64,000 nucleotides of DNA, from assembly GCA_024742485.1 (NCBI GenBank), contig JANSYK010000003.1, positions 496,001 to 560,000 on the forward strand. Direction: 5' to 3'. Source of the DNA: Alphaproteobacteria bacterium. GTDB taxonomy: Bacteria > Pseudomonadota > Alphaproteobacteria > Rhizobiales > Rhizobiaceae. Under the pieces are notes generated by a model. That model did not search any database. It had not been told where the DNA came from and saw only the letters and a program-made list of their open reading frames with translations. Positions 1,704 through 28,832 of this stretch are shown in pieces. Position 1 is the stretch's first letter; every line of letters begins with the position of its first letter. A program made the position numbers and the translations under genes.

Positions 1704-1811
1704 TATGCCATACACTGCCTGTCTTTAGGGTCAAGCAGATGACGGCGGCAAATGAATTGGCCGCCATGATGTGGAGCTTGATTGGCAACAGACAGGAGTG
1801 AGGTCTGCCTG

Positions 1812-2978: not shown

Positions 2979-3017
2979 CTACTGGCGCTGGTCGCGCCGC
3001 AAACCACAGGATTGACT

Positions 3018-4451: not shown

Positions 4452-4477
4452 CGCACAGGCATTGCATGCTTTGACAG

Positions 4478-4512
4478 GAAGCGCCGGCGGCAAATCATGC
4501 TGCCGGCGCTTC
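4478..4512 (+). other. Strong intercistronic hairpin
   Basis: Perfect 11-bp arms, GAAGCGCCGGC and GCCGGCGCTTC, around a 13-nt loop. The hairpin lies between the aldehyde dehydrogenase stop and the aldo/keto reductase start. There is no T-run, so an mRNA-stabilising or attenuating structure is more likely than a full Rho-independent terminator. Confidence 0.6.
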
Positions 4513-4551
4513 GCGTTGCCGTACCAAAGTTGATGAATGGAAAGTGTTGAA

Positions 4552-5532: not shown

Positions 5533-5625
5533 AAGCAGTTGGAATTTTCGCGGACATAACTTATACGGCTTCCCATTGCCCGCACCCCACCGGCCAGGGC
5601 GCAATGCTTCTGGCCGCAACCAGCA

Positions 5626-8914: not shown

Positions 8915-9799
8915 TTATTGCGACAGGAACGCAAGAACACATTCGCGCATGGGTTCGGTTTCGACATGCCCGGTCTCCGGCGAGATGATCACGCTCAGAG
9001 CGCCTGCCGCACCAGCCTCTGCATAGGCCCGGCGGACAAAATCGATTGCGGGGTTCAGCGCTGCCGGCGGGGTCAGCGGGTCCAGACCACCAGCGCCGAT
9101 AAGCTGCGGGCGTGGGGCAATTGATCCGGCGATGTTCTCCATGTCGCCGCAATTGAGCAGACCGGGAACCGTCATGTAGGGACCGTGAAGATCGTGCGCA
9201 TTCTCCTTTATCAATGGGCGTATGTTGGCAAAGGCACACAAATGCGCCACCCGTGAAACCCTTTCGTCGAGCGCGGCGAGCCAGTAGGCTTGGGTGGCGC
9301 CCATGGACAGACCCATTGTGGCAATCCGGCTGGCATCGACATCATCGCGCATGGCCAGGTAATCGAGGCCGGCGGAAAGGTCTGACAGCATTTGGCCAAA
9401 CAGGGTTTGCCCGTGCCAAAGAGCAGACTTTGAGAGGGCCGACTCAGACCCGTCGCCGGCTCGATCGTTGAAGCCGGGCATGTCGAGGCAAATCACAAGG
9501 AAACCCTGTCGCACAAGATCCAGCCCATAGGGACGGGCGAGGGCCGGACGGCCATCCACCAGCTCCCGGCGTCCAATATCGTGGCGATTGCCATGGGCGT
9601 GGCAGTACAGCACCGCAGGGCGTGGGCGCTCATCCGGCGGGCGCATCACGGTTGCCGGGATCATACTGTCTGCTGTTTCAATCATCACGTCTTCGATGAT
9701 CGTTCCGCGCAAAGTTCTTTCCCGCTCCAGTGTGCCTGTCCGAAAGCCGCGCGGACGGTCCGCGAAACCAAGAATGTGCCATAAATCTTCGGGGTGCAT
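8915..9799 (-). CDS. Alpha/beta hydrolase of the dienelactone hydrolase/acetylxylan esterase type
   Basis: A 294-residue hydrolase. The oxyanion-hole segment is LYCHAHGNRHDIG, the nucleophile elbow is GLSMGATQA (GxSxG), an acidic residue lies near GGLDPLTPP, and the catalytic His is likely in SPETGHVETEPM. The start at 9799 (MHPEDLWHILGF) is chosen because the 66 residues that could precede it look non-coding and would run over the operator. It is divergent from uxuA, and the 16-nt operator at 9856-9871 lies between them. An esterase acting on esterified uronic acids or glucuronides would fit that control, but this is inference. Confidence 0.75.
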   Translation of the reverse strand: MHPEDLWHILGFADRPRGFRTGTLERERTLRGTIIEDVMIETADSMIPATVMRPPDERPRPAVLYCHAHGNRHDIGRRELVDGRPALARPYGLDLVRQGFLVICLDMPGFNDRAGDGSESALSKSALWHGQTLFGQMLSDLSAGLDYLAMRDDVDASRIATMGLSMGATQAYWLAALDERVSRVAHLCAFANIRPLIKENAHDLHGPYMTVPGLLNCGDMENIAGSIAPRPQLIGAGGLDPLTPPAALNPAIDFVRRAYAEAGAAGALSVIISPETGHVETEPMRECVLAFLSQ

Positions 9800-9855
9800 C
9801 TTGCTCACAGAAAATCTTTCGTCCGACAGATCGAAGAATGGCAGTTGCCGTGAAA

Positions 9856-9871
9856 CTTGTATACTAGTACA
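9856..9871. promoter_or_regulatory. Operator copy A of the uxu GntR regulator
   Basis: CTTGTATACTAGTACA, a partly palindromic site of the FadR/FCD class. The exact reverse complement occurs again at 11905-11920. Copy A lies between the divergent hydrolase and uxuA genes, 27 bases before the uxuA start, so it can control both. Two identical sites flanking the regulator gene are strong evidence of function. Confidence 0.8.
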
Positions 9872-9898
9872 TGTGGACACGGAGGAGAAAGCGAAGAT

Positions 9899-11182
9899 AT
9901 GAGGCAAACCTGGCGCTGGTTCGGTCCGGCCGACAAGAATTCCCTGGCGGATGCTCTTCAGGCCGGTGCCCAGGGGATCGTCACGGCGCTGCATCATATC
10001 GCTCCGGGTGAGGTGTGGCCAGTCGATGCGATATCCGAGCGGCAGCGGCAGGTCTCAACGCGCCCCGATGGAAAGTCGACCGGACTGCATTGGGACGTCG
10101 TCGAAAGCCTTCCGGTGTCTGAATCGATCAAGACAATGTCCGGTGATTGGCGCCAACACATCCAGCATTACAATACCAGCCTGACAAATCTGGCGAAGGC
10201 CGGGATCCGAACGGTCTGCTACAATTTCATGCCAGTCCTCGACTGGACCCGAACGGACCTCGCCGCCCCGATGGCGCATGGTGGAACTGCCATGCGGTTT
10301 GACCTGACTGACTTCGCGGTTTTCGATCTTCATATCCTTGGCCGGGGTGGGGCGGGAAACGATTATCCTGAGAGTGTGCGGGAGCAGGCGGCCCGTCGAT
10401 TTGCACAGATGCCACAATCGCGCAGTGCCGAGCTTGCGTCCAATGTAACGGCGGGACTTCCGGGGTCGGCCGAACAATGGACGCTGTCGTCCCTGCGCGA
10501 CAAGCTGAAGGACTATGAGGCTCTTGAAGCCCGGCATCTGAGGCAAAATCACATCGTTTTTCTCACGGAGGTCGTGCCGCATGCCGAGAGGCTGGGCGTT
10601 CGCCTGTGTTGCCATCCCGATGATCCGCCGTTTCCGCTCCTGGGCCTGCCACGGATCATGTCGACGGCAGCGGACTATCGTTCCCTTCTTGACGCTGTCG
10701 ACAGCCCGGCTGCCGGCATGACCTTTTGCACCGGGTCACTGGGTGCGCGGTCAGACAACGACGTTCCGGCCATGGCACACGAGTTTGCTGAACGCATCCA
10801 CTTCGTTCATCTGCGCAATGTGACGCGGCAGGATGAAGCCTTGCATTGCTCATTCTTCGAAGACGAACATCTCGGTGGTCAAGTTGATATGGTTGCCGTG
10901 ATTGCCGCTCTTCTTGCCGAGGAAAGGCGCCGTGTCGCGGTCGGGCGGACCGACTGTGTCATTCCCATGCGCCCGGATCACGGCCAGAATATCCTGGATG
11001 ATCTAACGCGGGATGCGCAGCCCGGTTATCCAGCGGTGGGCCGCTTGAAGGGCCTCGCGGAATTGCGCGGTATCATGCACGCGCTTGAGGCGATGCAGGA
11101 TGCCGCCATAGATGGCCGTGCGGCAGTGCCGAGCGCCCGCCGATCACATCAGGAGGGTGCGGATGCCCCGGTTGAAGCCTGA
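9899..11182 (+). CDS. uxuA: Mannonate dehydratase
   Basis: A 427-residue UxuA-type enzyme that dehydrates D-mannonate to 2-keto-3-deoxygluconate. Family landmarks run from the start (MRQTWRWFGPAD and QGIVTALHHIAPGEVWP) through CYNFMPVLDWTRT, RLCCHPDDPPFPLLGLPRI (metal-binding Cys/His/Asp) and FCTGSLGARSDND to IHFVHLRNV and MRPDHG. The ATG at 9899 follows GGAGGAG; an upstream in-frame start would overlap the operator. Its 3' end overlaps the regulator gene. Together with uxaC and uxuB about 10 kb downstream it completes glucuronate breakdown to KDG. Confidence 0.95.
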   Translation: MRQTWRWFGPADKNSLADALQAGAQGIVTALHHIAPGEVWPVDAISERQRQVSTRPDGKSTGLHWDVVESLPVSESIKTMSGDWRQHIQHYNTSLTNLAKAGIRTVCYNFMPVLDWTRTDLAAPMAHGGTAMRFDLTDFAVFDLHILGRGGAGNDYPESVREQAARRFAQMPQSRSAELASNVTAGLPGSAEQWTLSSLRDKLKDYEALEARHLRQNHIVFLTEVVPHAERLGVRLCCHPDDPPFPLLGLPRIMSTAADYRSLLDAVDSPAAGMTFCTGSLGARSDNDVPAMAHEFAERIHFVHLRNVTRQDEALHCSFFEDEHLGGQVDMVAVIAALLAEERRRVAVGRTDCVIPMRPDHGQNILDDLTRDAQPGYPAVGRLKGLAELRGIMHALEAMQDAAIDGRAAVPSARRSHQEGADAPVEA

Positions 11183-11870
11183 TCGTGACACATTTGACCT
11201 TGGCGCGGCACTGCAGGATGTCGAGATCGATCGCTCCCGTTCGATCGGTCCGCAAATCTATGAGGCGCTGCGGGCGCGTATCATAGACAATCGCTTTCCG
11301 CCTGGCACCGCACTGAGTGAATCCGTCGTGGCGCGCTGTTGCGACATCAGCCGAACACCCTTGCGAGCTGCCATTCAGGATCTTGCTGGAGAGGGACTGA
11401 TTGTTGTTCGGCCGCAGGTGGATTCAGTCGTTGCACCGCATGACGAGGCGCGTGTCCGGGAAGCCATCTTCATTCGCGCGGCTATCGAAGCCGCCGTTGC
11501 CCGGCGGCTGGCTGAACGTGGGGCTGACGAAAGCAGACTGGCACCGATCCTTGCCGAACAGGAACAGGCGGCGGCCGCGGACGACTATATGGCGTTCTTT
11601 CACGCCGATGAAAGGTTCCACAGGACACTGGCACACATGGCCGAGGTGCCGAATGCCTGGCATCTCATACAGTCCGTCAAGGCGCATATCGATCGCCAGC
11701 GCCTTCGATTGATGTCGTCGATCACGGGCCGTTCCCAACGGGCCTATGAAGATCATCTCAATGTGCTGAAATGCATCCGGGAAGGCGATGCCAGCGGCGC
11801 TGCCGCGCAGATGCGGGACCATGTGAACTCGGCTCTGGAATCTGTCGGCTCGGATGGAAAACTGCCTTGA
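11163..11870 (+). CDS. GntR family regulator of the glucuronate cluster (FCD type)
   Basis: A 235-residue regulator. The winged helix-turn-helix (about residues 25-95) includes LSESVVARCCDISRTPLRAAIQ, and the FCD domain follows, with the acidic/His metal-site pattern FFHADERFHRTLAHMAE and a final AQMRDHV. The ATG at 11163 follows AGGAGGGT, and the gene overlaps the uxuA end by 20 bases, so the two are translated together. Identical operators at 9856 and 11905 lie before uxuA and before the binding-protein gene. It is probably a repressor relieved by a uronate or an intermediate. Confidence 0.9.
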   Translation: MPRLKPDRDTFDLGAALQDVEIDRSRSIGPQIYEALRARIIDNRFPPGTALSESVVARCCDISRTPLRAAIQDLAGEGLIVVRPQVDSVVAPHDEARVREAIFIRAAIEAAVARRLAERGADESRLAPILAEQEQAAAADDYMAFFHADERFHRTLAHMAEVPNAWHLIQSVKAHIDRQRLRLMSSITGRSQRAYEDHLNVLKCIREGDASGAAAQMRDHVNSALESVGSDGKLP

Positions 11871-11942: not shown

Positions 11943-13229
11943 ATGCGAAGCAATCTTCAGAGACTATTGATACTCGGAACTGCAGCCATGGGACTGACGG
12001 TAGGCAGTGCGCTTGCCGAGACCGAATTGCGGATCACCTGGTATAATGACGGCAATGAAGGCGAGGTCATGCGTGACCTGCTCGATCGTTATGAGGCTGC
12101 AAATCCGGACGTCAAAGTCACCCTTGATGTGGTGCCTTACAAGGCGATCCTTGAAAGCCTGCCCGTACAGCTGGCTGCCGGAGACGGCCCGGACCTTGCT
12201 CGCGTAACCGATCTGGGTGGTTTGTCGGAACATTACATGGATCTGACACCACATATCTCCGATCCGGCCTATTGGGAAAAGAATTTCGGCCCGTTTTTGA
12301 AATGGTTGCGCAAGCCCGGTGACGACAGCTCCATTTCCGGCTTCATGACGCAGCTGACAGTCACAGGCCCCTATGTCAACAAGACCCTGTTTGAGCAGGC
12401 TGAAATCGAGATGCCCGGAGAGGGCGCAACCTGGGATGATTGGGCCAAGGCCGTCAACGAAGTTGCGACCAAGCTTGAAATTCCGATCCCCATGGCATGG
12501 GACCGCTCGGGACACCGCGTGGCGGGTCCGGCAATTGCAATGGGCGCCAAGATGTTTGACGCCGAAGGCAATCCGGCGCTGGTCGATGACGGACTCAAGG
12601 CAATGGCCGGCCGGCTCTATGACTGGCACCAGGACGGCACGATGGCCAAGGAGCTGTGGGGCTCGGTTTCAGGTTCACAATATCTTGGCGCCAATGAGGA
12701 CTTCGCCAATGCCCAGGTCGTCATGTATATGAGCGGCTCCTGGCAAATTCCGCAATTTGCTGACAAGATTGGTGATGCGTTTGACTGGTGGGCTGTTCCG
12801 GCCCCGTGCGGCCCGGCAGCCTGCACAGGCATGCCTGGCGGTGCGTCACTTGTAGCGTTGAAAACATCCAAACATCCGGCTGAAGTTGGCAAGTTGATGG
12901 ATTATCTGTCCAGCGAAGAAGTGCTCAACGAGTTCTATGGGCGCACACTGTTTATCCCCGGTCATCTGGGGCTGGCTGCAAGTGGTGTTGATTTCAAGAC
13001 CGAGGACCCTCGGGCTGAGCATGCTCTGCTGACCTTCGCTGCAGCAGTTCCGGGAATCTCACCGATTGCGTTCGATCTGCAGGGCTATGTGTATAACCGG
13101 GTCATGTTCAACGCCCTGATTTCGCGACTTGGCGAGGCCATTGTCGGCGAACTGACGCTCGATCAGGCCTATGATCGCATGACACAGGACATCGAGCAGC
13201 AGATCGCCGAGAAGAAACGCGGCGGCTGA
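11943..13229 (+). CDS. Sugar ABC transporter substrate-binding protein (family 1)
   Basis: A 428-residue periplasmic binding protein. A Sec signal peptide is clear: MRSNLQRLLI, a hydrophobic core, and cleavage after GSALA before ETELRITWY. The body has the usual cluster-B pattern: YEAANPDVKVTLDVVPY, DGPDLARVTDLGG, and a late PGGASLVAL near an extracellular solute-binding hinge. It is the first gene after operator B and is followed by a GC-rich hairpin and two permease genes. The ligand is probably a glucuronide or uronate oligomer, because the rest of the operon degrades glucuronate. Confidence 0.92.
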   Translation: MRSNLQRLLILGTAAMGLTVGSALAETELRITWYNDGNEGEVMRDLLDRYEAANPDVKVTLDVVPYKAILESLPVQLAAGDGPDLARVTDLGGLSEHYMDLTPHISDPAYWEKNFGPFLKWLRKPGDDSSISGFMTQLTVTGPYVNKTLFEQAEIEMPGEGATWDDWAKAVNEVATKLEIPIPMAWDRSGHRVAGPAIAMGAKMFDAEGNPALVDDGLKAMAGRLYDWHQDGTMAKELWGSVSGSQYLGANEDFANAQVVMYMSGSWQIPQFADKIGDAFDWWAVPAPCGPAACTGMPGGASLVALKTSKHPAEVGKLMDYLSSEEVLNEFYGRTLFIPGHLGLAASGVDFKTEDPRAEHALLTFAAAVPGISPIAFDLQGYVYNRVMFNALISRLGEAIVGELTLDQAYDRMTQDIEQQIAEKKRGG

Positions 13230-13321: not shown

Positions 13322-14353
13322 ATGGCGCACAATTCAACGGCACAATCGGACGAAATGAGTTTGGGTGACCGTTTCAACGCGGTTGCGGCATGGCCAATGC
13401 GCATTCTCTTTGGCCTGCTGGACAGACCATTCCGGGCCATCCAGAGACTGTTCGGCATAGAACGTATGCCGTATATTTTCCTGTTGCCCAATCTGGCGTT
13501 TTTCGGCCTGTTCGTGGTTGTGCCGCTGTTCATCAATTTCGCGTTTTCGGCAACCGGCGGGACAAATCTGTTCCTGGCGGATCGCCCTTTTGTCGGCACG
13601 GAGCAATATCGCTATCTTGCCGATTGCGGGAGTTATCTTGATCCCTCGACCTGTCGCGAGGACCGCTTTTGGCGCGGCATCTACAACACCATCACCTTTG
13701 TGGTGTTTCAGGTTGCCTTCATGGTTCTGTTCTCTCTTGTAACCGCCTTGATCCTCAACCGGAAAATTCGGGGTCGCGGGTTTTTCCGGGCTGCGTTTTT
13801 CTTCCCGGTACTGCTTTCCCCGGTTGTCGTCGCGCTCATCTGGAAATGGATCTTGTTGCGTGACGGCGTTCTGAATGCCGGGCTGACATCCATCGGTCTG
13901 GACCGCATTCTGTTTTTTGTCGATCCGACCTGGTCGATGTTCTGGGCGATCTTCGTGTCGATCTGGGCACATATGGGTTTTTATACCTTGATCCTGCTGG
14001 CCGGATTGCAGGCGATCCCTCCGGATCTCTACGAAGCCGCAGAAATGGATGGGACCAAGCGCGAGCGGATATTCTGGCGGATCACGCTGCCGCTGCTGTG
14101 GCCCAACCTGCTGGTGGTCATTGTGCTGGCTCTGATCAAGGCGGTGCAGATATTCGACGAGGTGTTTGTGCTGACCGGCGGTGGACCGGGAACGGCAACG
14201 CAATTCATCGTGCAATATATCTACACCACCGGCTTTTCGAACCAGGTCCAGAATTTTGGTCTTGCGGCTGCGGCCTCGGTCGTCCTCGGCGTTGTCCTGT
14301 TTGCCCTCACACTGATGCAGCTTGCCGCCTCCCGGCGACGGGAGGATAACTGA
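13322..14353 (+). CDS. Sugar ABC transporter permease (MalF/UgpA type)
   Basis: A 343-residue inner-membrane protein. After a 50-residue cytoplasmic N-terminus it has about six membrane segments, beginning with YIFLLPNLAFFGLFVVVPLF. The ATPase-coupling EAA loop is visible as YEAAEMDGTKRERIFWRITLPLLWPN. A periplasmic insertion with two Cys (DCGSYLDPSTC) follows segment 1. It ends two bases before the second permease, whose ribosome-binding site GGAGG lies at its end. It pairs with the MalG-type permease and the ATPase at 16577. Confidence 0.93.
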   Translation: MAHNSTAQSDEMSLGDRFNAVAAWPMRILFGLLDRPFRAIQRLFGIERMPYIFLLPNLAFFGLFVVVPLFINFAFSATGGTNLFLADRPFVGTEQYRYLADCGSYLDPSTCREDRFWRGIYNTITFVVFQVAFMVLFSLVTALILNRKIRGRGFFRAAFFFPVLLSPVVVALIWKWILLRDGVLNAGLTSIGLDRILFFVDPTWSMFWAIFVSIWAHMGFYTLILLAGLQAIPPDLYEAAEMDGTKRERIFWRITLPLLWPNLLVVIVLALIKAVQIFDEVFVLTGGGPGTATQFIVQYIYTTGFSNQVQNFGLAAAASVVLGVVLFALTLMQLAASRRREDN

Positions 14354-14354
14354 C

Positions 14355-15431
14355 ATGACAGCAGCAGCGTCAGATACAAAACGTTCCGTCACTGACATGC
14401 TGACGGCCCGCAGGGGAGGGACATCCTGGCACTGGACCGATATTTTCACCTATGTCTATCTCGCCTTCGGGGTCTGTTTGATGTTTGGTCCGGTGATCTG
14501 GCTGGCGCTGTCGTCATTCAAGACACCCGCAGGACTGCTGGAATTTCCGCCGACCTTGCTGCCCCTTGGACAAATCGAGGTGGCTGTCGAGGGCTATGAC
14601 GATCCCTTGCCGCTCTACAAGGTTACCATGGAGGATGGCACCGTTCGTGAACTGGCGCAGATAAGGCGCGTCGGGATCATCGCACAAATGGTGGATCCGG
14701 CGGCGCCGGAAGAGCGTCTCAAGGTGCCGATTGCCAATCGCGAGCCCATCCGCGAGTTCCGAATGGCATGGGAAAATTATACCAAGCCGCTGGAACGATT
14801 CAATTTTCTGCAATACCTCAACAATTCCGTGATTGTGACGGTCGTTGCAACCGCCATCACATTGCTGATCAATTCGATGGCTGCTTTCGGATTGTCGATC
14901 TACGAATTCAGGGGACGCAACGCGGTGATGCTGTTTGTCATCGGCACGCTGATGATTCCGATCACCATCATCCTTGTTCCGGCCTATCTCGTCGTCACGC
15001 AACTGAACATGGTCAACACGCTTTGGGCGGTTATTCTGCCGGGAGCTGCCACGCCGACAGGCGTGTTCCTGTTGCGCCAATACATGTTGACCCTGCCGCG
15101 GGATCTCATTGAGGCTGCGCGCATGGACAAGGCAAGCGAATGGGCGATCTACTGGCGCATCGTTTTGCCATTGTCCTTGCCGGCCATCGCAGTGTTGGCG
15201 ATCTTCTCGGTAATGTGGCGCTGGAACGACTTCCTCTGGCCGCTGGTTGTTCTCAATCGCAACGAGGTCTACACGTTGCAGATCGGGCTGAACGCCTTCC
15301 AGGGCGAACTGGATGTCCAGTGGCATTATGTCCTGGCGATGACGGTGGTCACGCTGATCCCCGTAGCTCTGGTCTTTGCCTTCCTGCAGCGCTTCATCAC
15401 GACGGGCATTGCTTCGACGGGGATGAAATGA
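14355..15431 (+). CDS. Sugar ABC transporter permease (MalG/UgpE type)
   Basis: A 358-residue inner-membrane protein. The EAA loop is IEAARMDKASEWAIYWRIVLPLSLP. The family usually has about 280 residues. The extra length is a roughly 85-residue periplasmic stretch between segment 1 and segment 2 (about residues 65-150), which includes VTMEDGTVRELAQIRRVG and may contact the binding protein. The ATG at 14355 follows GGAGG, and the stop overlaps the next gene by ATGA. It forms the membrane channel with the permease at 13322. Confidence 0.92.
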   Translation: MTAAASDTKRSVTDMLTARRGGTSWHWTDIFTYVYLAFGVCLMFGPVIWLALSSFKTPAGLLEFPPTLLPLGQIEVAVEGYDDPLPLYKVTMEDGTVRELAQIRRVGIIAQMVDPAAPEERLKVPIANREPIREFRMAWENYTKPLERFNFLQYLNNSVIVTVVATAITLLINSMAAFGLSIYEFRGRNAVMLFVIGTLMIPITIILVPAYLVVTQLNMVNTLWAVILPGAATPTGVFLLRQYMLTLPRDLIEAARMDKASEWAIYWRIVLPLSLPAIAVLAIFSVMWRWNDFLWPLVVLNRNEVYTLQIGLNAFQGELDVQWHYVLAMTVVTLIPVALVFAFLQRFITTGIASTGMK

Positions 15432-16438
15432 CGCGGCCGTTGATCTTCATGGACCCGTTCCCGCGAACCGAAGAGATGGTCTACACACCGGAGACCGTCA
15501 CTGCGCTTGATCAGCTCGGGGACGTGGTTTCCCATTTCGGATCGCGGGCGCCTGATGCGCTGGTCGAAGAGGTGCTGCCTCGCGTTGAAATCATAATAGG
15601 CCAGACCGCCATGCCCAGGGAAAGGCTGGACCGCGCGCCGCATCTTCGCGCGATCTTGAATGTCAAGGCCAATTGGGAACCCAACATCGACTATGGCGAA
15701 GCGCAGGCTCGCGGCATTCACGTGCTTTCGGCCGCGCCCTCCATGGCGCCCGCGGTGGCGGAATTCTGCATTGGTCAGGCGATCGCATTGACGCGTGGCC
15801 TGCCGGAGGCGGATCGCCTGTTTCGTAGCGGCAAGGAGAGCTACGGAATCAAGGGTGCAAGGCAGCATTACGGGTTGCTGGGAACCAGGGTCGGCCTGAT
15901 CGGATTTGGCAATCTCGGACGTGAGCTTGTTCCGTTGTTGCGGCCGTTTGGCGGTGAAATGCTGGTTCACGATCCCTGGTTGTCAGACGAGTATCTACGC
16001 CTCGAAGGATTGGTTCCGTCCTCTCTGACGGACCTGCTGACGTCAGCCCGCGTAATATTCGTACTGGCCGGTGTGACCACCGAAAATGAGGGATTTCTCG
16101 ATCGCCGCAAACTCGAACTGGTCCAGCCGGATGCGAGCCTGATCCTGGCCAGCCGGGCGGAGGTTGTCGATTTTGAAACGCTGATCGAATTGGGCGATTC
16201 CGGCCGCATCCGGGTGGCCATTGATGTGTTCCCACAGGAGCCGGTACCGGATGATCATCCGTGCCGGCATTCCAGGAACATATTATTCAGCGCCCACATC
16301 GCGGGAGCGATGAAAGCGTCCTATGCACGCATTCGTTCGGCCATGCTTGATGACACGACGCAGATTCTCAAGGGATTCCCGCCCATGCGCATGCAGCAGG
16401 CGGTGCCTCGCCTGGCGGAAATCTCGTGCAGCCGGTAG
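15428..16438 (+). CDS. D-2-hydroxyacid dehydrogenase family protein
   Basis: A 336-residue NAD-binding 2-hydroxyacid dehydrogenase. The Rossmann motif is VGLIGFGNLGRELVPLLRPFG. The usual catalytic Arg/Glu/His positions fall in LASRAEVVD, DVFPQEPVPDDHP and FSAHIAG. The start overlaps the permease stop (ATGA), so it is a true member of the transporter operon. In this setting it might reduce or oxidise a sugar-acid intermediate, for example a 2-keto-gluconate-like compound. The substrate is not visible from motifs. Confidence 0.87.
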   Translation: MTRPLIFMDPFPRTEEMVYTPETVTALDQLGDVVSHFGSRAPDALVEEVLPRVEIIIGQTAMPRERLDRAPHLRAILNVKANWEPNIDYGEAQARGIHVLSAAPSMAPAVAEFCIGQAIALTRGLPEADRLFRSGKESYGIKGARQHYGLLGTRVGLIGFGNLGRELVPLLRPFGGEMLVHDPWLSDEYLRLEGLVPSSLTDLLTSARVIFVLAGVTTENEGFLDRRKLELVQPDASLILASRAEVVDFETLIELGDSGRIRVAIDVFPQEPVPDDHPCRHSRNILFSAHIAGAMKASYARIRSAMLDDTTQILKGFPPMRMQQAVPRLAEISCSR

Positions 16439-16576
16439 GCGGGGCGAAGGCTGCTGGCGACCGGAAGACACCGATCGCATCCGGTTTGGCACAGCAAGCA
16501 ACGCGGCATCGGAAACGGACAGAACGGAGCGGTGAAATGAAAATGGCGAATTGCAGCTCGCTCTAGGAAAGGCAAG

Positions 16577-17665
16577 ATGACCGAGATAGTCCTCAAGAAT
16601 ATTCGCAAGGCTTACGGCGAGGTCGATGTCATCCACGGCATCGATCTGAATGTCGAGAGCGGCAAGTTCGTCGTATTTGTCGGACCATCGGGTTGTGGAA
16701 AATCAACGCTTCTGCGGATCATCGCCGGCCTGGAGGGTGTTACGTCCGGTGAGGTTTTGATTGACGGCCATATTGTCAATGACGAGCCGGCCTCCGAACG
16801 GGGGCTTGCCATGGTGTTCCAATCCTATGCGCTTTATCCGCATATGAGTGTTTACAAGAACATGGCATTCGGTCTCGAAAACTCGAAGATGCCACGCGAA
16901 GAGGTTGAAAAGCGTGTCAATGATGCCGCTGCCATGCTGCAGATCACGCAATATCTCAAACGCCGGCCCAAGGCGCTGTCCGGCGGCCAGCGCCAGCGGG
17001 TCGCCATCGGGCGTGCCATTGTTCGGGATCCCAAGGCATTCCTTTTTGACGAGCCACTATCCAATCTGGATGCTGAACTGCGCGTGACGATGCGCAAGGA
17101 ACTGGCCGCATTGCATGCCAAGCTGGGTGGGACCATGATCTATGTGACCCATGATCAGGTTGAAGCCATGACGTTGGCCAATACCATCGTTGTGCTTAAT
17201 GCGGGCCGGATCGAACAGGTCGGTGCACCGCTCGATCTCTACAACAATCCGCAAAACACGTTTGTTGCCGGCTTCATCGGATCACCGCGCATGAATCTAG
17301 TGGAGGCGACCGTCGAGCGGTCGGATGGCGGATTTCAATTGGCTGCCGGCGACAGCCATGTATCAGTGCCCAATATCGAGGGGATCAGGGAAGGGCACCA
17401 CGTAACCTTCGGATCCCGCCCTGAACACATCGAGATTGTTGATGAAGCTGATGCCGATATCGTTGCGTCGGTCGACCTGTCCGAGCAGTTGGGTGGTGAG
17501 ACCTATCTCTACTGTACCCCTGAAGGCATGCCGCAATTGACGGTTCATCAGCTCGGCCAGCTGCCCATTGAAAGGGGACAGAATATCCATTTGCGATTGA
17601 ACCGCGCCTGCATGCATCTTTTCGATTCCGAAGGCAATGTCATCGTCAACGGGGTCAGCGATTGA
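16577..17665 (+). CDS. Sugar ABC transporter ATP-binding protein (UgpC/MalK type)
   Basis: A 362-residue ATPase. Walker A is GPSGCGKST, the Q-loop is VFQSYALYPHM, the signature is LSGGQRQRVAIGRA, Walker B is AFLFDEPLSNLD and the switch His is in YVTHDQVEAMTL. A C-terminal TOBE domain (about residues 240-355) marks the MalK subfamily. About 140 bases separate it from the dehydrogenase gene upstream. It energises the importer encoded at 11943-15431. Enzymes of this type can be shared, so it may also serve the ATPase-less importer at 38.9-42 kb. Confidence 0.95.
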   Translation: MTEIVLKNIRKAYGEVDVIHGIDLNVESGKFVVFVGPSGCGKSTLLRIIAGLEGVTSGEVLIDGHIVNDEPASERGLAMVFQSYALYPHMSVYKNMAFGLENSKMPREEVEKRVNDAAAMLQITQYLKRRPKALSGGQRQRVAIGRAIVRDPKAFLFDEPLSNLDAELRVTMRKELAALHAKLGGTMIYVTHDQVEAMTLANTIVVLNAGRIEQVGAPLDLYNNPQNTFVAGFIGSPRMNLVEATVERSDGGFQLAAGDSHVSVPNIEGIREGHHVTFGSRPEHIEIVDEADADIVASVDLSEQLGGETYLYCTPEGMPQLTVHQLGQLPIERGQNIHLRLNRACMHLFDSEGNVIVNGVSD

Positions 17666-17666
17666 C

Positions 17667-18710
17667 ATGACAAGGAACGCCTTGGGTATTGGTGTTGTCG
17701 GCACGGGCATGGCTGCGACACCACACGCCAGAGCGCTGCAAGACCTGGCGGATATTGCCGTAGTTCGCGGCGTATACTCCCGCAACAGTGAACGACGGGA
17801 GGCATTTGCGTCGCAGTTCGGATTTCCTGCCGCGGGATCAGTTGACGCGATGGCTGACGATCCTGACATTGATGCCGTCCTGCTGATAACACCACCCAAT
17901 CAGCGGCAGGAGCTTGTCAGCAGGTTCGCACGGGCCGGCAAGCACATACTGATGGAAAAGCCGGTCGAAAGAACGACAGACGCCGCGCAGCAACTGGTTG
18001 AGACCTGCGAACGGTGTGGCGTCAAACTCGGCATTGTATTCCAGAACCGGTTTCGCCAGACGTCACAGGCCCTGCGGCAATTGGTTGATGGCGGTACCAT
18101 GGGTGCCATCAGACTTGTCCAGGTCGAGGTTCCGTGGTGGCGGGACCAGTCCTACTACGACGAACCGGGCAGGGGAAGCTATGAACGGGACGGCGGCGGT
18201 GTGCTGATCAGCCAGGCGATCCATGCGCTCGACCTGATGTTGAGCATTGCGGGACCGGTTGCACAGGTTCAAGCCGTCGCTGCAACGACACCATTTCACC
18301 GGATGGAGTCTGAGGACTTCGTTTCCGGTGGGATGCGCTTCGAAAGTGGCGCCAGCGGATCATTGATGGCAACGACCGCTGCGTATCCCGGCGCAAGTGA
18401 ATCAATGACGCTAGGAAGCGAGAATGCCAGCGCTCATCTTCAGTCCGGCACGCTGCGGATCGATTGGCGGGACGGACGCAGTGAGACCATCAGCGAAACG
18501 GCAGGAACCGGCGGTGGCGCGGATCCGATGGCTTTTCCCCATGATTGGCACCGGAGCTTGATCAGTGATTTTGTCAGCGCTGTTCGGGATGGGCGGGAAC
18601 CGGCAATACCCGGTCGCGAAGCGCTCGGCGTGCATCGGTTGATAGACGCGTTGCTGGCGTCTTCAAAGCAGCAGCGCGCGGTGACCATCAACAAAAACTC
18701 CAGCAACTGA
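17667..18710 (+). CDS. Gfo/Idh/MocA family oxidoreductase (first of three)
   Basis: A 347-residue NAD(P)-dependent sugar dehydrogenase. The Rossmann motif is GVVGTGMAATPHARAL, and the EKP catalytic motif is ILMEKPVERT. The substrate face holds GGGVLISQAIHALDLML, with the His and Asp expected for inositol-dehydrogenase-like enzymes. The start lies one base after the ATPase stop. It is the first of three tandem paralogues, all different from each other, in the glucuronate operon. Members oxidise a hydroxyl, often C1, C2 or C3, of sugars, inositols or glycosides; which one here is unknown. Confidence 0.9.
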   Translation: MTRNALGIGVVGTGMAATPHARALQDLADIAVVRGVYSRNSERREAFASQFGFPAAGSVDAMADDPDIDAVLLITPPNQRQELVSRFARAGKHILMEKPVERTTDAAQQLVETCERCGVKLGIVFQNRFRQTSQALRQLVDGGTMGAIRLVQVEVPWWRDQSYYDEPGRGSYERDGGGVLISQAIHALDLMLSIAGPVAQVQAVAATTPFHRMESEDFVSGGMRFESGASGSLMATTAAYPGASESMTLGSENASAHLQSGTLRIDWRDGRSETISETAGTGGGADPMAFPHDWHRSLISDFVSAVRDGREPAIPGREALGVHRLIDALLASSKQQRAVTINKNSSN

Positions 18711-18719
18711 AGGTGCGTT

Positions 18720-19748
18720 ATGCATGATTTGAAACTTGCCGTAATTGGTGTCGATCATCGCCACATTTACGGACAACTTGCCGGAATGCTGGCACTGGGT
18801 TGCGTCTGCAAAGGTTGGTGGACCGAGGGCGATCCGCAACCGGTCGACGGATTCGTTGAACGGTTTCCCCATATTCCTCGTGTTGCTGATCGCAAAACCC
18901 TGCTTGACGACCCGGAGATTGACCTGGTGTTGATCGCCGATGTTCCGGTGCGGCGGGCTGAAAGAGCGATTGAGGCCATGCGGTCCGGCAAGGACGTGAT
19001 GACGGACAAACCCGGGTGTACAACCCTGTCCCAGCTGGAGGAGATTCGGCGGACGGTTGCGGAAACCGGTCGTATCTGGTCAATCGATTTTTCCGAGCGG
19101 TTTGAGGTGCCGGCGGTCACGCGAGCTGCCGAACTGGTTGAACAGGGTGCGATCGGGAAGGTTGTGCAAACCGCTGGTTTTGGCCCGCACCGGCTCAACC
19201 GGCACACAAGGCCTGATTGGTTTTTCGACAGTCAACAATATGGTGGCATTCTCTGCGATATCGCCTCGCATCAGATCGACCAGTTTCTGTTCTTCACCGG
19301 ATCTTCGGATGCCGAGATCGTTTCGGCCAGCATTGGAAACTTCGCCAATCCCGAGGACCCCGGACTGGAGGATTTCGGAGAAATTGTCGTTCGCGGGGAC
19401 AAGGGCAGGGGTTACATACGTGTCGACTGGTACACACCGGACGGGTTGCCGACCTGGGGTGACGGGAGGCTGACGATATTGGGGACCGAAGGAACGATTG
19501 AGCTGCGAAAATATGTTGATATTGCCGGTCGACCTGGAACCGACCATCTTTTCCTGGTCAATGGAACGCGCTGCGAATACATCGATGCCTCTGATGCGCC
19601 GCTGCCCTATTTCCAAAATCTCGCCAGCGATGTGAAAAACCGCACGGGCACTGCCATGCCTCAAACCCATTGTTTCAAGGTGATGGAACTGGCGATCCGC
19701 GCGCAAAACGACGCCGTGCGGCTCGGCGCCCTTCCGCTGCAATCCTGA
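18720..19748 (+). CDS. Gfo/Idh/MocA family oxidoreductase (second of three)
   Basis: A 342-residue paralogue. It departs from the family at both hallmark motifs: the N-terminal nucleotide loop reads VIGVDHRHIYGQ instead of GxGxxG/A, and EKP is replaced by DKP in DVMTDKPGCTT. The Lys that positions the substrate is kept. The C-terminal face has GGILCDIASHQIDQFLFF. This branch may bind its cofactor differently or act on a particular keto sugar. Its stop overlaps the next start (TGATG), so the three dehydrogenases are clearly co-translated. Confidence 0.86.
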   Translation: MHDLKLAVIGVDHRHIYGQLAGMLALGCVCKGWWTEGDPQPVDGFVERFPHIPRVADRKTLLDDPEIDLVLIADVPVRRAERAIEAMRSGKDVMTDKPGCTTLSQLEEIRRTVAETGRIWSIDFSERFEVPAVTRAAELVEQGAIGKVVQTAGFGPHRLNRHTRPDWFFDSQQYGGILCDIASHQIDQFLFFTGSSDAEIVSASIGNFANPEDPGLEDFGEIVVRGDKGRGYIRVDWYTPDGLPTWGDGRLTILGTEGTIELRKYVDIAGRPGTDHLFLVNGTRCEYIDASDAPLPYFQNLASDVKNRTGTAMPQTHCFKVMELAIRAQNDAVRLGALPLQS

Positions 19749-20845
19749 TGTTGAATGTCGCAATATTGGGCGCCGGAATTGGGGCGCAGCACATGGACGG
19801 TTATCTGGCTCTGCCGGAACGATTCAATGTCGTAACCATTTGCGATCTCGACATTGCCCGCGCTTCCAGTTTGGCGGACATGGCCAAAGGCTGCACGGTG
19901 ACGAGCGAAATTGCAGAGGTTCTTTCAGATCCGCGCGTTGACATTATCGATATCTGTTTGCCACCACATCTGCATGCGCCCGTTGCGAAGAATGCCCTGT
20001 CGGCCGGCAAACACGTTATCTGTGAAAAGCCATTTGCCTGCAGTGTCCTGGAGGCAGAAGACATTCTGGCCGCTGCAAGTGCCAGCCAATGCAAGATCAT
20101 GCCCATCTTTCAGTACCGCTATGGCAGAGGGTTGCGTCAATTGACCGGTCTGCAGGAGCGGGCACTGACAGGCAAACCGCTGGTTGCCACGGTTGAAACC
20201 CACTGGGACCGGGATGCTGACTACTATTCCGTTGCCTGGCGTGGACGCTGGAAAAGCGAGCGCGGGGGTGCCGTGCTTGGCCATGCCATCCACATCCATG
20301 ATTTGGTCACCCGGTATTTTGGAGCGGCAACCGAGGTCTCCGTGATGCTTGATACGCGCGTGAATCCGATTGAAACGGAGGATTGTGCGGCCATTGCCAT
20401 GAGGACAGCCTCCGGCGGTCTGGTGACCTCTTCCGTGACGTTGGGCGGAGCCGGGAACATGTCTCGAATGCGGTTGGTCTTCGATGCGTTGACCGCTGAA
20501 AGCGGCCGCAATCCCTATGCGCCCGGTTCCGACGACTGGACGTTTGTAAGCCGCAAGACCGAGGGACAATCGGCAATCGACAAAGCTCTTTCGGAAATCA
20601 GCAGGGAAATGGATGGTCAGCCGTCCGGATTTGCCGGCCAGTTTCTGGCGGTTTCAGACCATCTGGGCGGCAAACCTGCCGATATGGTGACGCCGGAGGA
20701 TGGGTTGCGGTCGATTGAACTCGTGGCGGCGATCTATCAGGCTGCACGAACCGGTGCTCGTGTTTCGCTGCCACTTGATAGAAGCCTGCCGATCTGCGCT
20801 GACTGGATCCCGGTTCAATTCCGTGGCGATCAATCCGATGCTTAA
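19748..20845 (+). CDS. Gfo/Idh/MocA family oxidoreductase (third of three)
   Basis: A 365-residue paralogue. The Rossmann motif is AILGAGIGAQHMDGYL and the EKP motif is VICEKPFACS. The substrate-side segment is GGAVLGHAIHIHDLV. The start overlaps the previous stop by one base, and its end overlaps uxaC by eight bases. Tight coupling to uxaC suggests that it works on the glucuronate side of the pathway, for example on a glucuronide before the free acid enters UxaC (inference). Confidence 0.9.
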   Translation: MLNVAILGAGIGAQHMDGYLALPERFNVVTICDLDIARASSLADMAKGCTVTSEIAEVLSDPRVDIIDICLPPHLHAPVAKNALSAGKHVICEKPFACSVLEAEDILAAASASQCKIMPIFQYRYGRGLRQLTGLQERALTGKPLVATVETHWDRDADYYSVAWRGRWKSERGGAVLGHAIHIHDLVTRYFGAATEVSVMLDTRVNPIETEDCAAIAMRTASGGLVTSSVTLGGAGNMSRMRLVFDALTAESGRNPYAPGSDDWTFVSRKTEGQSAIDKALSEISREMDGQPSGFAGQFLAVSDHLGGKPADMVTPEDGLRSIELVAAIYQAARTGARVSLPLDRSLPICADWIPVQFRGDQSDA

Positions 20846-22247
20846 TCATCCGGATCGTCTTTTCCCGACCGACACCAATGTGCGCGCCATTGCCCGAGCG
20901 CTCTACGAGACAGTTGAAGGTCTGCCAATCATCAGCCCGCATGGGCATACGGATCCGAAATGGTTTGCGGATAACGCCGCATTCAGCGATCCCGCTTCGC
21001 TCCTGGTGGTTCCGGACCACTATGTCCTGCGAATGCTGTTCAGCCAGGGAATAACGCCCGAACAACTAGGGCTTGCCCGGCTGGATGAAGATGCGCTGGA
21101 GTTTGACACCGAAGCCGTCTGGGCAAACTTTGCCGACAACTATCATCTGTTTCGCGGGACTCCGACACGCGTCTGGCTCGATCACACTTTCGAAACGCTG
21201 TTCAATCTCGATGTACCGCTGAGCTCATCGACGGCAAAACTGTATTTTCAAACGATCAATAGGTCCTTGAGCCAGGCGGCGTTTCGTCCACGGGCAATGT
21301 TTGAACGATTCAACATCGAAGTTCTGGCTACAACCGAAAGCGCGCTTGATGATCTTGCAAGCCATGCCGCATTGGCTGGGTCTGGCTGGCCGGGCCGGGT
21401 GATAACAACCTATCGGCCTGATGCGATTTCGGATCCGGATGATTCGAATTTTCGGCACAATCTCGAAACGCTGGGCGAAATAACGGATTGCGATACTGCC
21501 AGCTGGGCGGGGTACCTTGAGGCCCATCGCAAACGCCGCGCCTTTTTTCGTGACCACGGTGCGACCGCTACTGACCATGGATTTGGCAGTGCCGGAACAG
21601 CCGATTTGTCTGAAGCAGAATGTGAGGCCCTGTTTACGCGCATCGTGGCCAACAGCAGCGATGACTCTGATCATGCGCTCTTTCGCGCCCAGTTTCTCAC
21701 GGAAATGGCGAAAATGAGCATCGAGGATGGAATGGTCATGCAGATCCATCCCGGGTCAATGCGAAATCACAACAGTTCGATCCTGACCCGCTATGGCCGC
21801 GACAAGGGCTTCGATATCCCGACAAGAACAGACTATGTCGCTGCGTTACGACCGCTGCTCAACCGTGTCGGAATGAACTCGCAACTGACCCTGATCGTGT
21901 TCACGCTGGATGAAACGACTTATGGGCGCGAACTGGCGCCTTTGGCTGGCGTCTATCCGGCACTGAAACTTGGACCTCCCTGGTGGTTTTTCGACAGCCC
22001 CGACGGCATGATGCGATTTCGGGAGCAGACCACCGAAACGGCAGGATTTTACAACACGGTAGGGTTCAACGATGACACGCGGGCCTTTCCGTCAATCCCG
22101 GCCCGTCATGATATGGCCCGCCGCGTTGACTGCGCCTATCTGGCCCAAAGAGTTGCCGACCACCGGTTGCGAGAGAGTGAAGCACATGAAATTGCGCGTG
22201 ATCTCGCCTACGAGTTGCCCAGGAAAAACTATCGCTTGATGGGATAA
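20838..22247 (+). CDS. uxaC: Glucuronate (uronate) isomerase
   Basis: A 469-residue amidohydrolase-fold enzyme, the usual UxaC length. It converts D-glucuronate to D-fructuronate, or galacturonate to tagaturonate. The N-terminal metal motif is IISPHGHTDPKWFADN; further landmarks are DNYHLFRGTPTRVWLDHTF, VMQIHPGSMRNHN, and PPWWFFDSPDGMMRF with the closing GFNDDTRAFPSIPARHD. The ATG at 20838 gives the standard N-terminus; a GTG at 20823 is possible. It overlaps the third Gfo/Idh/MocA gene and is followed 45 bases later by uxuB. Confidence 0.95.
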   Translation: MLNHPDRLFPTDTNVRAIARALYETVEGLPIISPHGHTDPKWFADNAAFSDPASLLVVPDHYVLRMLFSQGITPEQLGLARLDEDALEFDTEAVWANFADNYHLFRGTPTRVWLDHTFETLFNLDVPLSSSTAKLYFQTINRSLSQAAFRPRAMFERFNIEVLATTESALDDLASHAALAGSGWPGRVITTYRPDAISDPDDSNFRHNLETLGEITDCDTASWAGYLEAHRKRRAFFRDHGATATDHGFGSAGTADLSEAECEALFTRIVANSSDDSDHALFRAQFLTEMAKMSIEDGMVMQIHPGSMRNHNSSILTRYGRDKGFDIPTRTDYVAALRPLLNRVGMNSQLTLIVFTLDETTYGRELAPLAGVYPALKLGPPWWFFDSPDGMMRFREQTTETAGFYNTVGFNDDTRAFPSIPARHDMARRVDCAYLAQRVADHRLRESEAHEIARDLAYELPRKNYRLMG

Positions 22248-22292: not shown

Positions 22293-23762
22293 TTGAAGCG
22301 AATCTCAACAACCGTAGCGAACACGTACCGGGGACCGGCCAGCTTGCCGTCCTATGACCGGCATCGTGTCACACCATCCATCGTTCATTTGGGTGTTGGT
22401 GCCTTTCACAGGGCGCACCAGGCTGTCTATATCGATGATTGTCTCGGCGAGGATCCGAATTGGGCGATCACTGGCGCCAGCCTTCGCAACCGTGCCACTC
22501 GAGATGCACTTGCACCGCAGGATTGCCTCTACACCGTTGCGGTCAGGCATGGTTCGAAAACAGAATTGCGGGTTATCGGATCCATCAAGGAACTGTTGCA
22601 CTGTCCTGGGGACAATAAGCCGATTATCGATCGTATCGCGTCGCCGGAGACCCGTGTGGTGACGCTGACCGTCACCGAAAAAGCCTATTGCCACAATCCG
22701 GCAACGGGCGACCTCGATATGCAGCACGCTGACATTGCGGCGGATTTGCGCCAGCCGAGAAACCCACGGTCGGTCCCGGGCCTCCTTGTCGCCGCGCTGG
22801 CGGAACGGCGTGCCAAAAAGCTTCCACCGGTGTCGATTGTCAGCTGCGACAACCTTCCGGCCAACGGCGCCACGCTTGCGCATGTTGTTCGCCGATTTGC
22901 CGAACGCACCGATCCGGCACTGGCACAATGGATCGCGTCCGAAATCTCTTTCCCATCGACAATGGTGGATCGGATCGTCCCGGCCACGACTGATGCTGAC
23001 CGGATGGAGATTGCTGAACTGGCAGGCTATGACGATGCATGGCCGGTCGTGACCGAGCCGTTCAGCCAGTGGGTGGTCGAGGATCGGTTTGTCGCTGGTC
23101 GGCCACCTCTGGAGAACGCGGGTGTCCTCATGGCTGCCGATGTCGAACCCTTTGAATTGATGAAGCTGCGGTTGCTGAACGGCAGCCATTCGGCGCTTGC
23201 CTATCTCGGAGTTCAGGCTGAATTCGACACCGTCAGCGACGCGGTGGCAGATGCACAAATCAGGCAATTTCTTGAGGCCATGATGTGTCGCGAAATCATG
23301 CCGACACTGCAGGTGCCCGGCGTCGACCTGAACGCCTATGTCGCGTCTCTGTTGAACCGGTTTGCCAACACGGCACTCAATCACCGCACAATGCAGATCG
23401 CCATGGACGGATCGCAGAAAATCCCCCAGAGAATTCTCGGCACCATTCGGGAATGCCGGCGCACGAACAGGACGCATGATCGGCTGATTCTTGCCGTTGC
23501 AGCCTGGATCCGGCATCTTGCCGGCAAGACTGCGAACGGGCAGGTTTATGTGGTCGAGGATCCACAGGCTCGATATTTTGGTGAGGTTGCCGCGACAACG
23601 CTGCCTGATGTCAATGCGTTTGGAGCCGCCATTCTCGACATCGAATCCGTGTTTGGCCGCGATCTGTCCAGTGATGAAAGCTTTCGATCAAGGGTCTTGA
23701 GCCAGTTGCGGATTTTGTTCGAAAGTGGTCCGGCCGCAGCTCTGGCGATGTTTGAGAATTAG
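22293..23762 (+). CDS. uxuB: Fructuronate reductase (mannitol dehydrogenase family)
   Basis: A 489-residue polyol dehydrogenase that reduces D-fructuronate to D-mannonate. Motifs agree with E. coli UxuB: IVHLGVGAFHRAHQAVY, VTLTVTEKAYC, VSCDNLPANG, FPSTMVDRIVP, the catalytic segment MKLRLLNGSHSALAYLG (Lys, Asn and His) and QIAMDGSQKIPQR. The start is TTG at 22293, since no ATG gives the expected N-terminus. Its product is the substrate of UxuA. It is the last gene of the long operon; no obvious terminator follows. Confidence 0.95.
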   Translation: MKRISTTVANTYRGPASLPSYDRHRVTPSIVHLGVGAFHRAHQAVYIDDCLGEDPNWAITGASLRNRATRDALAPQDCLYTVAVRHGSKTELRVIGSIKELLHCPGDNKPIIDRIASPETRVVTLTVTEKAYCHNPATGDLDMQHADIAADLRQPRNPRSVPGLLVAALAERRAKKLPPVSIVSCDNLPANGATLAHVVRRFAERTDPALAQWIASEISFPSTMVDRIVPATTDADRMEIAELAGYDDAWPVVTEPFSQWVVEDRFVAGRPPLENAGVLMAADVEPFELMKLRLLNGSHSALAYLGVQAEFDTVSDAVADAQIRQFLEAMMCREIMPTLQVPGVDLNAYVASLLNRFANTALNHRTMQIAMDGSQKIPQRILGTIRECRRTNRTHDRLILAVAAWIRHLAGKTANGQVYVVEDPQARYFGEVAATTLPDVNAFGAAILDIESVFGRDLSSDESFRSRVLSQLRILFESGPAAALAMFEN

Positions 23763-28711: not shown

Positions 28712-28832
28712 TTGTGCCGCTTTGAGGTCATGGATTGCCGATGCCGAGCGGAGTGCCGCCCGCCGGCTCGTCGATCATGGTCCCGTCGCTGAGTTGGGAA
28801 TTGAAAGATTGTTTTTGCATGGTGCCGTCCCG

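Follow-up and report, generated by a model that had tools for sequence, protein, structure and literature searches.

A conserved set of Gfo/Idh/MocA oxidoreductases in an alphaproteobacterial glucuronate operon: a candidate entry unit for uronate-type sugars

What role might three different oxidoreductases of one superfamily play inside an operon for glucuronate breakdown? The question is raised by a stretch of 64,000 nucleotides (the window, that is, the whole stretch analysed) from a Rhizobiaceae genome of the Alphaproteobacteria (GenBank assembly GCA_024742485.1, contig JANSYK010000003.1, positions 496,001 to 560,000). Three genes for Gfo/Idh/MocA oxidoreductases, here GFO1, GFO2 and GFO3, and one for a D-2-hydroxyacid dehydrogenase (2HADH) are located between an ATP-binding cassette (ABC) importer and uxaC-uxuB, with uxuA and gntR upstream. 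This arrangement had been proposed in a first-pass annotation, and it was borne out by Pfam and NCBIfam searches and by the gene junctions. The observations reported here are of gene content, gene order, conservation, protein families and conserved residues. It was found that GFO1-GFO2(-GFO3) is a conserved unit, more constant than its tie to uronate genes. Judged from sequence, the trio probably prepares a glucuronate-like sugar for the glucuronate-breakdown pathway. What is new here is the putative oxidoreductase entry unit, so far uncharacterised, in a uronate operon; the UxaC route itself was already known.

The genes of the operon are tightly packed (Table 1). As read from the sequence, the stop codon of permease 2 overlaps the ATG of 2HADH at 15428 by 4 bp, and a single base separates the stop codon of the ABC ATPase from the ATG of GFO1 at 17667. 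The gap between GFO1 and GFO2 is 9 bp, the GFO2 stop and the GFO3 ATG overlap as TGATG at 19748, and the uxaC ATG at 20838 lies 8 bp inside GFO3. For the segment 15428-20845, the first-pass annotation had named the Gfo and 2HADH genes correctly in its title and left out the importer ATPase at 16577-17665. Each of the three Gfo proteins scored above the curated Pfam cut-offs for both the N- and the C-domain of GFO_IDH_MocA, which places them in the superfamily. Their mutual BLASTP identity was 25-30% over 69-180 residues, and this rules out the recent duplication of one gene as the source of the trio. The source genome gave 29 GFO_IDH_MocA matches, 28 of them above the cut-off; Gfo proteins alone are therefore unremarkable, and the conserved unit is the unusual part.

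The known counterpart of the surrounding genes is the Ashwell isomerase route (UxaC-UxuB-UxuA), which leads to 2-keto-3-deoxygluconate (KDG). The likeness consists in the joint presence, within a single operon, of a GntR regulator gene and of uxaC, uxuA and a UxuB-type gene, while the three extra Gfo genes, 2HADH and the ABC importer set the window apart. Both uxaC and uxuA passed their curated cut-offs, whereas the UxuB candidate reached 405.8 bits with NCBIfam NF011611, under the cut-off of 603. The full glucuronate route claimed earlier thus holds down to KDG; a KDG kinase or aldolase was not recognised among the operon genes. UxaC-route loci with a novel ABC importer and a GntR regulator have been described in Rhodobacteraceae, and no Gfo gene is named there in the excerpts of that paper (PMC5507952). 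In the source genome, two more UxuA-family matches stand side by side at G000:C154:2351506-2353763, away from the window, as a second mannonate-type locus.

Conservation of the unit was evaluated in 80 loci from named genomes (L060-L139), the best 80 of at least 563 GFO2 relatives and hence the closest matches only. Seventeen of them form one marine group, mostly near-identical and marked by a protein cluster called c14, and 26 extend over less than 19.5 kb, so that neighbourhood counts are lower bounds. Two loci of a further set (L025 and L026) are apparently the same as L060 and L061, and only L060-L139 were counted. Genes in the fetched loci were called with a custom script, clusters are single-linkage BLASTP groups, and a directon was defined as genes on the same strand with gaps up to 200 bp. 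GFO1 stood immediately before GFO2 in 67 of the 80 loci and GFO3 immediately after it in 46, both being true of 38. The gaps, overlaps included, were 20 bp or less in 61/67 GFO1-GFO2 pairs and in 44/46 GFO2-GFO3 pairs. Since gene order is kept across genera, the arrangement is more than chance. The GFO2 directon also contained an ABC ATPase in 57 loci, a binding protein in 47, 2HADH in 33, uxuA in 20, and uxaC and uxuB in 6 each.

A set of 61 genomes, composed of the source genome and relatives from its genus, family and order, had GFO2 flanked by adjoining GFO1 and GFO3 in six (G003, G005, G006, G007, G019 and G057). A 2HADH of at least 60% identity was present, besides the window, only in G001, G006 and G007; in G001 (L027) GFO1-GFO2 is accompanied by an importer, 2HADH and abH, an alpha/beta-hydrolase gene, and GFO3 is missing. 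The divergent abH of the window, which the first-pass annotation did not mention, recurs with the unit: 22 of the 80 named loci have a homologue no more than 10 kb from GFO2. No paper was recognised as describing the GFO1-GFO2-GFO3 set among the open-licence full texts searched, which is not proof of absence.

The nearest solved relatives of the trio were then compared. WlbA/WbpB, a UDP-GlcNAcA 3-dehydrogenase (3q2k, 3q2i), was the best match of GFO1 and GFO3 in sequence search (130.9 and 99.0 bits, respectively), in profile search (198.2 and 187.6 bits) and in the comparison of predicted folds (query-normalised template modelling score 0.79-0.85; mean predicted local distance difference test value of the models 91.8 and 95.4). 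GFO1 shares with it the stretch W-x-R-x-Q-x-YYD. WlbA differs in being a biosynthetic enzyme that acts on a nucleotide sugar. Its enzyme class oxidises C-3' of UDP-GlcNAcA, a nucleotide sugar of glucuronate type (excerpts of PMC10622841). The glucuronide-3-dehydrogenase P2B11 (8tdi, named by its PDB title) was the third sequence in the GFO1 profile search (129.6 bits), yet its identity is 22-23%. In the fold comparison it came in from rank 24, and the scores of levoglucosan, inositol and glucose-fructose enzymes were similar, so that fold alone cannot decide. DgpA, a C-glycoside 3-oxidase, was also among the nearest solved relatives of GFO1. These matches support C3-type chemistry as the nearest precedent for GFO1 and GFO3. 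The PDB relatives of GFO2, 3u3x and 2p2s, carry only the names "oxidoreductase" or "putative oxidoreductase".

Residue conservation was assessed from alignments of 41 GFO1, 15 GFO2 and 39 GFO3 rows (L034 is outside the final alignment, A2). In GFO1, K98, W158, R159, Q161, Y163, Y164, Q183, H186 and H295 were kept in 41/41 rows. GFO2 kept K97, D180 and H184 in 15/15 rows, a Lys-Asp-His set that is usual among dehydrogenases of the family. In GFO3, K95, Y124, H180 and H183 (numbered from base 19745) were kept in 39/39. The Asp position of GFO2 corresponds to Ser/Thr182 in GFO1 and Gly/Ser/Thr179 in GFO3, and this sets GFO2 apart in kind from GFO1 and GFO3. A split into an oxidation step (GFO1/GFO3) and a reduction step (GFO2) would be a natural reading.

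The explanation favoured here, which we hold tentatively and ahead of its rivals, is that a paired oxidation and reduction, preferably at C3, makes a substrate for UxaC, UxuB or UxuA from an unusual uronate or uronoside. The ABC importer would bring in a uronate-type sugar or small uronoside. GFO1, together with GFO3 where present, may then oxidise the uronate ring, most likely at C3, and so form a keto intermediate; carbon, substrate and direction are all putative. GFO2, the bearer of the usual dehydrogenase active site, would re-reduce this intermediate, again in a presumed direction. The net product would be an isomer or a freed sugar, passed through UxaC, UxuB and UxuA to KDG. Where present, abH and 2HADH could handle a substituent of the imported compound, acyl or hydroxyacid. 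An epimerisation of this kind had been raised as the alternative in the first-pass annotation, and it fits better than the cleavage which that annotation had put first, because no enzyme is missing from it.

Is the tie to uronate genes strong enough for this explanation? Within 10 kb of GFO2, uxuA was found in 37 of the 80 named loci, uxaC in 13, uxuB in 11 and any of the three in 38. Among the annotated plasmid loci (L045-L058), uxuA, uxaC or uxuB was present in 5/14 (L047, L048, L049, L052 and L053). A sample of 385 genomes across the class, including the source genome, contained GFO1 in 22 genomes, GFO2 in 19, uxaC in 26 and uxuA in 29. GFO1 and GFO2 co-occurred in 12 genomes (1.1 expected) and GFO1 and uxaC in 7 (1.5 expected), where the co-occurrence P values ignore kinship. 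GFO1 and uxuA shared 9 genomes; when uxuA matches below 200 bits (7 genomes) were left out, 5 remained (1.3 expected). In addition, a metagenome-assembled genome (L066:11017-13434, plus strand) carries a single 805-codon open reading frame in which a near full-length GFO3 is followed by UxuB; this could reflect either a real fusion or an artefact of assembly. The co-occurrence with uxaC and this GFO3-UxuB frame agree with the earlier proposal that the paralogues are tied to uronate catabolism.

Several observations weigh against the paired oxidation and reduction of a uronate. No uxu gene was found within 10 kb in 42/80 named loci (26 of the 80 being the short ones mentioned above), in the stretch fetched for 9/14 annotated plasmid loci, or across 19 kb of the G001 locus L027. 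In the class sample, GFO1 was within 20 kb of uxaC in only 2 of the 22 GFO1 genomes and of uxuA in 3; the other five genomes with GFO1 and uxaC have the two genes on different contigs. There is thus an association with uronate genes, albeit a loose one, and the oxidoreductase unit varies less. The coupling of the paralogues to uxaC noted in the first-pass annotation is a local feature; with uxaC in only 13/80 loci, it is ruled out as a fixed partner of the unit. The unit itself can be incomplete: GFO1 without GFO2 and GFO3 adjoins uxaC in S. meliloti (L053), beside a tripartite ATP-independent periplasmic (TRAP) carrier and kduI-kduD, in Azospirillum (L057) GFO1 alone has a sugar kinase gene and eda as neighbours, and GFO2-GFO3 without GFO1 sits with DUF993 and AP_endonuc_2. 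Pairing is therefore not obligatory. The neighbours of these two solitary GFO1 genes do, on the other hand, count in favour of the uronate link. Finally, the identity of GFO1 and GFO3 to WlbA is only 24-28%, which makes the C3 assignment weak.

Two kinds of variant loci were observed in their own right. In the 17 marine loci, the gene after GFO2 encodes c14, about 403 residues long (e.g. L095:11020-12231, plus strand), to which no Pfam family could be assigned in the one locus tested (L095). Its similarity to UxaC is colinear and very weak (NCBIfam 23.7 bits, where the cut-off is 387; profile comparison E 0.012, probability 3.6); c14 could possibly be a highly divergent uronate isomerase. The locus L143:7842-18964 contains GFO2-GFO3 without GFO1, an ABC importer, another Gfo gene, DUF993, AP_endonuc_2 and a 493-residue protein without Pfam family. 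L100, L116 and L142 resemble it by cluster, the families having been read in L143 only. Loci of this type represent a second unassigned sugar pathway.

The strongest rival is the scheme put first in the first-pass annotation, a non-hydrolytic cleavage in which one Gfo enzyme would act first, oxidising a glucuronide at C3; a lyase would then free the aglycone, a hydratase would add water, and a second Gfo enzyme would reduce 3-keto-glucuronate, giving glucuronate for UxaC. Its C3 precedent stands, in WlbA, glucuronide-3-dehydrogenase and DgpA, the latter two being among the nearest solved relatives of GFO1. The importer, of SBP_bac_1 type, also counts for it. The absence of glycoside hydrolases and lyases was likewise confirmed, as no glycoside hydrolase or polysaccharide lyase family was matched by the operon proteins in Pfam, and no GH2, the only glycosidase family searched genome-wide, was found in the source genome (the same search was positive in 5/14 control genomes). 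On the other side, the NCBIfam glycoside and disaccharide 3-dehydrogenase models gave 18-35 bits on the trio against cut-offs of 650-750.

Known 3-keto cleavage proceeds by oxidation, elimination, hydration and reduction; the levoglucosan pathway LgdA-LgdB1-LgdB2-LgdC resembles the scheme in its outer C3 oxidation and reduction steps and has separate elimination and hydration enzymes (excerpts of PMC7676230), for which no candidate was recognised in the window operon. Oxidation and reduction at C3 are also the outer steps of 3-keto glycoside pathways of the BT2158/BT2159 type, which appear among the NCBIfam model names too. The elimination and hydration enzymes of such pathways are sugar-isomerase-like proteins of the AP_endonuc_2 type. 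The source genome gave 17 AP_endonuc_2 matches, and those outside the operon could supply a lyase. In the operon there was none but UxuA, itself a weak match; other lyase folds were not searched. In the named loci, which were searched with a home-made profile (four seeds, iterated once), AP_endonuc_2 proteins besides UxuA occurred within 10 kb in 12 of the 38 uxu-linked loci, every one of them a member of the marine c14 group, and in 0/26 outside it. A scheme without that lyase type is therefore preferred.

Replacement of a glycosidase is also at odds with the relatives. A GH2 protein stands beside the unit in six of them (L066, L070, L075, L079, L081 and L152), and all six carry the N-x-K signature of beta-glucuronidases; the L066 protein scored 206 bits with the beta-glucuronidase model (cut-off 544). 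Such enzymes suggest uronide import, in favour of cleavage. They also indicate that the unit is not a simple glycosidase replacement, and where the two share a directon (L066 and L081) a second system would be redundant unless it handled another linkage. Considering both the AP_endonuc_2 and the GH2 results, cleavage is considered unlikely.

Less probable than cleavage is a role of the trio as dehydrogenases of aldonates or keto-aldonates (acting, for example, on L-gulonate, L-idonate or 2-keto-gulonate) whose products enter at D-fructuronate or D-mannonate, UxaC being a side entry. This improbable reading would account for the more frequent linkage to uxuA than to uxaC. It draws on Ketogulonicigenium (L049), where GFO1-GFO2 without GFO3 is beside uxuA, a mannitol dehydrogenase gene and uxaC, and on Paracoccus seriniphilus (L048, with a TRAP carrier) and Sulfitobacter (L052, with a tripartite tricarboxylate transporter, TTT), where the same pair is beside uxuA or uxuA and uxaC. 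TRAP and TTT carriers usually import small acids, which speaks for a monomeric acid as substrate in those loci. The occurrence of GFO1-GFO2 with these carriers also counts against glycoside cleavage and for paired oxidation and reduction. Against the aldonate reading, the likeness of GFO1 and GFO3 is to pyranose enzymes and not to those that act on open-chain acids, and the known L-gulonate dehydrogenase belongs to another family.

Ranked next, and doubtful, is the possibility of a uronosidase of the GH109/GH188 kind, NAD-dependent and complete in itself, in the shape of GFO1 or GFO3, in which case the operon would have its glycosidase. The sulfoquinovose enzyme SqgA of GH188 has a Gfo-like fold that fills in for a missing glycosidase, the fold being common to GH188 and GH109; GH188 enzymes act in clusters without a classical sulfoquinovosidase and are near-universal in the sulfoquinovose-monooxygenase (sulfo-SMO) clusters of the Roseobacter clade (excerpts of PMC10755693). 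Homologues of GH188 (cluster c11) were found within 10 kb of GFO2 in 20/80 named loci; the member in L122 gave 350 bits to PDB 8qc2 (SqgA), with a range of 342-350 to the SqgA entries, and 487 to 8zn9. By analogy, a parallel NAD-dependent enzyme for a uronate sugar would be thinkable, and the presence of GFO1 alone with uxaC in S. meliloti would suit it.

The active sites agree only in part. From the ArSqgA set of Lys107, Tyr136, Glu189 and His193, the Lys and the His are kept in GFO1 and GFO3, and neither protein has all four. In GFO3, Lys95 and Tyr124 are 29 positions apart, as are Lys107 and Tyr136 of ArSqgA, and they are kept with His183 in 39/39 rows. The Tyr is kept in GFO3 only; GFO1 has His in 39/41 rows and Asn in the window, the equivalence being based on spacing and alignment. 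At the Glu189 position, four before the catalytic-type His, S/T is found in GFO1 and G/S/T in GFO3. In ArSqgA this Glu contacts the C4-OH. A PDB search with GFO1 and GFO3 at 1e-10 returned neither the SqgA entries (8qc2, 8qc3 and companions) nor the GH109 entry 6t2b, so that membership of GH188 or GH109 was not found, and the closest relative is a dehydrogenase. A GH188-type hydrolase, considered as the principal explanation, was demoted to a rival on account of the Glu position in both proteins and the Tyr position in GFO1. About as doubtful is a more specific version, a new family of NAD-dependent uronosidases or uronoside oxidoreductases in which GFO1 or GFO3 would open glucuronosyl head groups, abH would remove acyl chains and 2HADH would use the aglycone. 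Glucuronosylglycerol from glucuronosyl-diacylglycerol would be an example, making the unit a uronate counterpart of the GH188 sulfoquinovose modules that neighbour it in many marine relatives.

The neighbourhood of these GH188 homologues was also inspected. Cluster c23, an alkanesulfonate-type luciferase-like (LLM) monooxygenase, occurred within 10 kb of GFO2 in 8/80 loci, and in L122 it is found together with an aldo-keto reductase, a flavin reductase and a UTRA regulator. Clusters c23, c27, c31 and c26 are presumably sulfoquinovose genes, judging by domain content. As a separate observation, genes resembling sulfoquinovose monooxygenase and a GH188-type gene lie near members of the abH family that flanks the window operon (L122:19-5396, L129, L133, L091, L032 and L058).

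The weakest alternative, that the trio are inositol dehydrogenases (the outcome that would have overturned the earlier proposal) or unrelated Gfo enzymes present by chance, is highly improbable: TIGR04380 (iolG) is the best NCBIfam match of GFO1 and GFO3, but its scores of 113.9, 55.3 and 84.3 bits on the trio against a cut-off of 355 rule out an inositol dehydrogenase identity, no inositol gene was recognised among the operon genes, and gene order is conserved across genera.

The features of the operon are collected in Table 1. The uxuA frame was taken from its first start codon, and the true start is probably a few codons downstream; the GntR/FCD frame was treated likewise, hence its overlap with uxuA.

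Table 1. Genes of the operon and the divergent flanking gene, in window coordinates
Gene or product	Position	Strand	Supporting match
abH, alpha/beta-hydrolase, possible esterase or lactonase, divergent	8915..9997	-	Pfam Abhydrolase_1 26.7, DLH 24.6 bits
uxuA, D-mannonate dehydratase	9857..11182	+	Pfam PF03786 366 bits
GntR/FCD regulator	11112..11870	+	Pfam GntR 51, FCD 73 bits
ABC importer solute-binding protein	11943..13229	+	Pfam SBP_bac_1 84 bits
ABC importer permease 1	13322..14353	+	Pfam BPD_transp_1 63.8 bits
ABC importer permease 2 (frame from first start codon)	14322..15431	+	Pfam BPD_transp_1 66.1 bits
D-2-hydroxyacid dehydrogenase (2HADH)	15428..16438	+	Pfam 2-Hacid_dh_C 113.8 bits
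ABC importer ATPase, MalK type	16577..17665	+	Pfam ABC_tran 116, OB_MalK 43 bits; TOBE domain
GFO1, Gfo/Idh/MocA oxidoreductase, WlbA-like	17667..18710	+	Pfam 95.6 bits; nearest PDB WlbA 3q2k/3q2i
GFO2, Gfo/Idh/MocA oxidoreductase, K-D-H set as in usual members	18720..19748	+	Pfam C3 domain 71.7, PF01408 36 bits
GFO3, Gfo/Idh/MocA oxidoreductase, WlbA-like	19748..20845	+	Pfam 87 bits; nearest PDB WlbA
uxaC, glucuronate isomerase	20838..22247	+	NCBIfam PRK02925 547 bits, cut-off 387
uxuB-type, mannitol dehydrogenase family, probable fructuronate reductase	22293..23762	+	Pfam Mannitol_dh 169, Mannitol_dh_C 173 bits

Two other gene groups of the window were recorded. Upstream of the operon, at 1782-7247 (plus strand), genes for an FAA-hydrolase, an aldehyde dehydrogenase, an aldo/keto reductase, a D-lyxose isomerase and a PfkB kinase look like a separate pentose or aldonate pathway. 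At 27050-30359 (minus strand), a GMC oxidoreductase and a sulfatase with a choline-sulfatase C-terminal domain are encoded.

The two or three oxidoreductase genes, usually adjacent, are spread over various alphaproteobacteria of sea and soil: genomes of Rhizobiaceae-like bacteria and Rhodobacteraceae have them, as do marine alphaproteobacterial single-cell genomes, and a dedicated importer is often encoded alongside. Should GFO1 or GFO3 prove to be a uronosidase, it would be a second acidic-sugar case among the NAD-dependent glycosidases. If the unit is a new entry for uronates, it would fill a gap in the use of acidic algal and plant sugars by these bacteria and offer a defined set of genes for testing.

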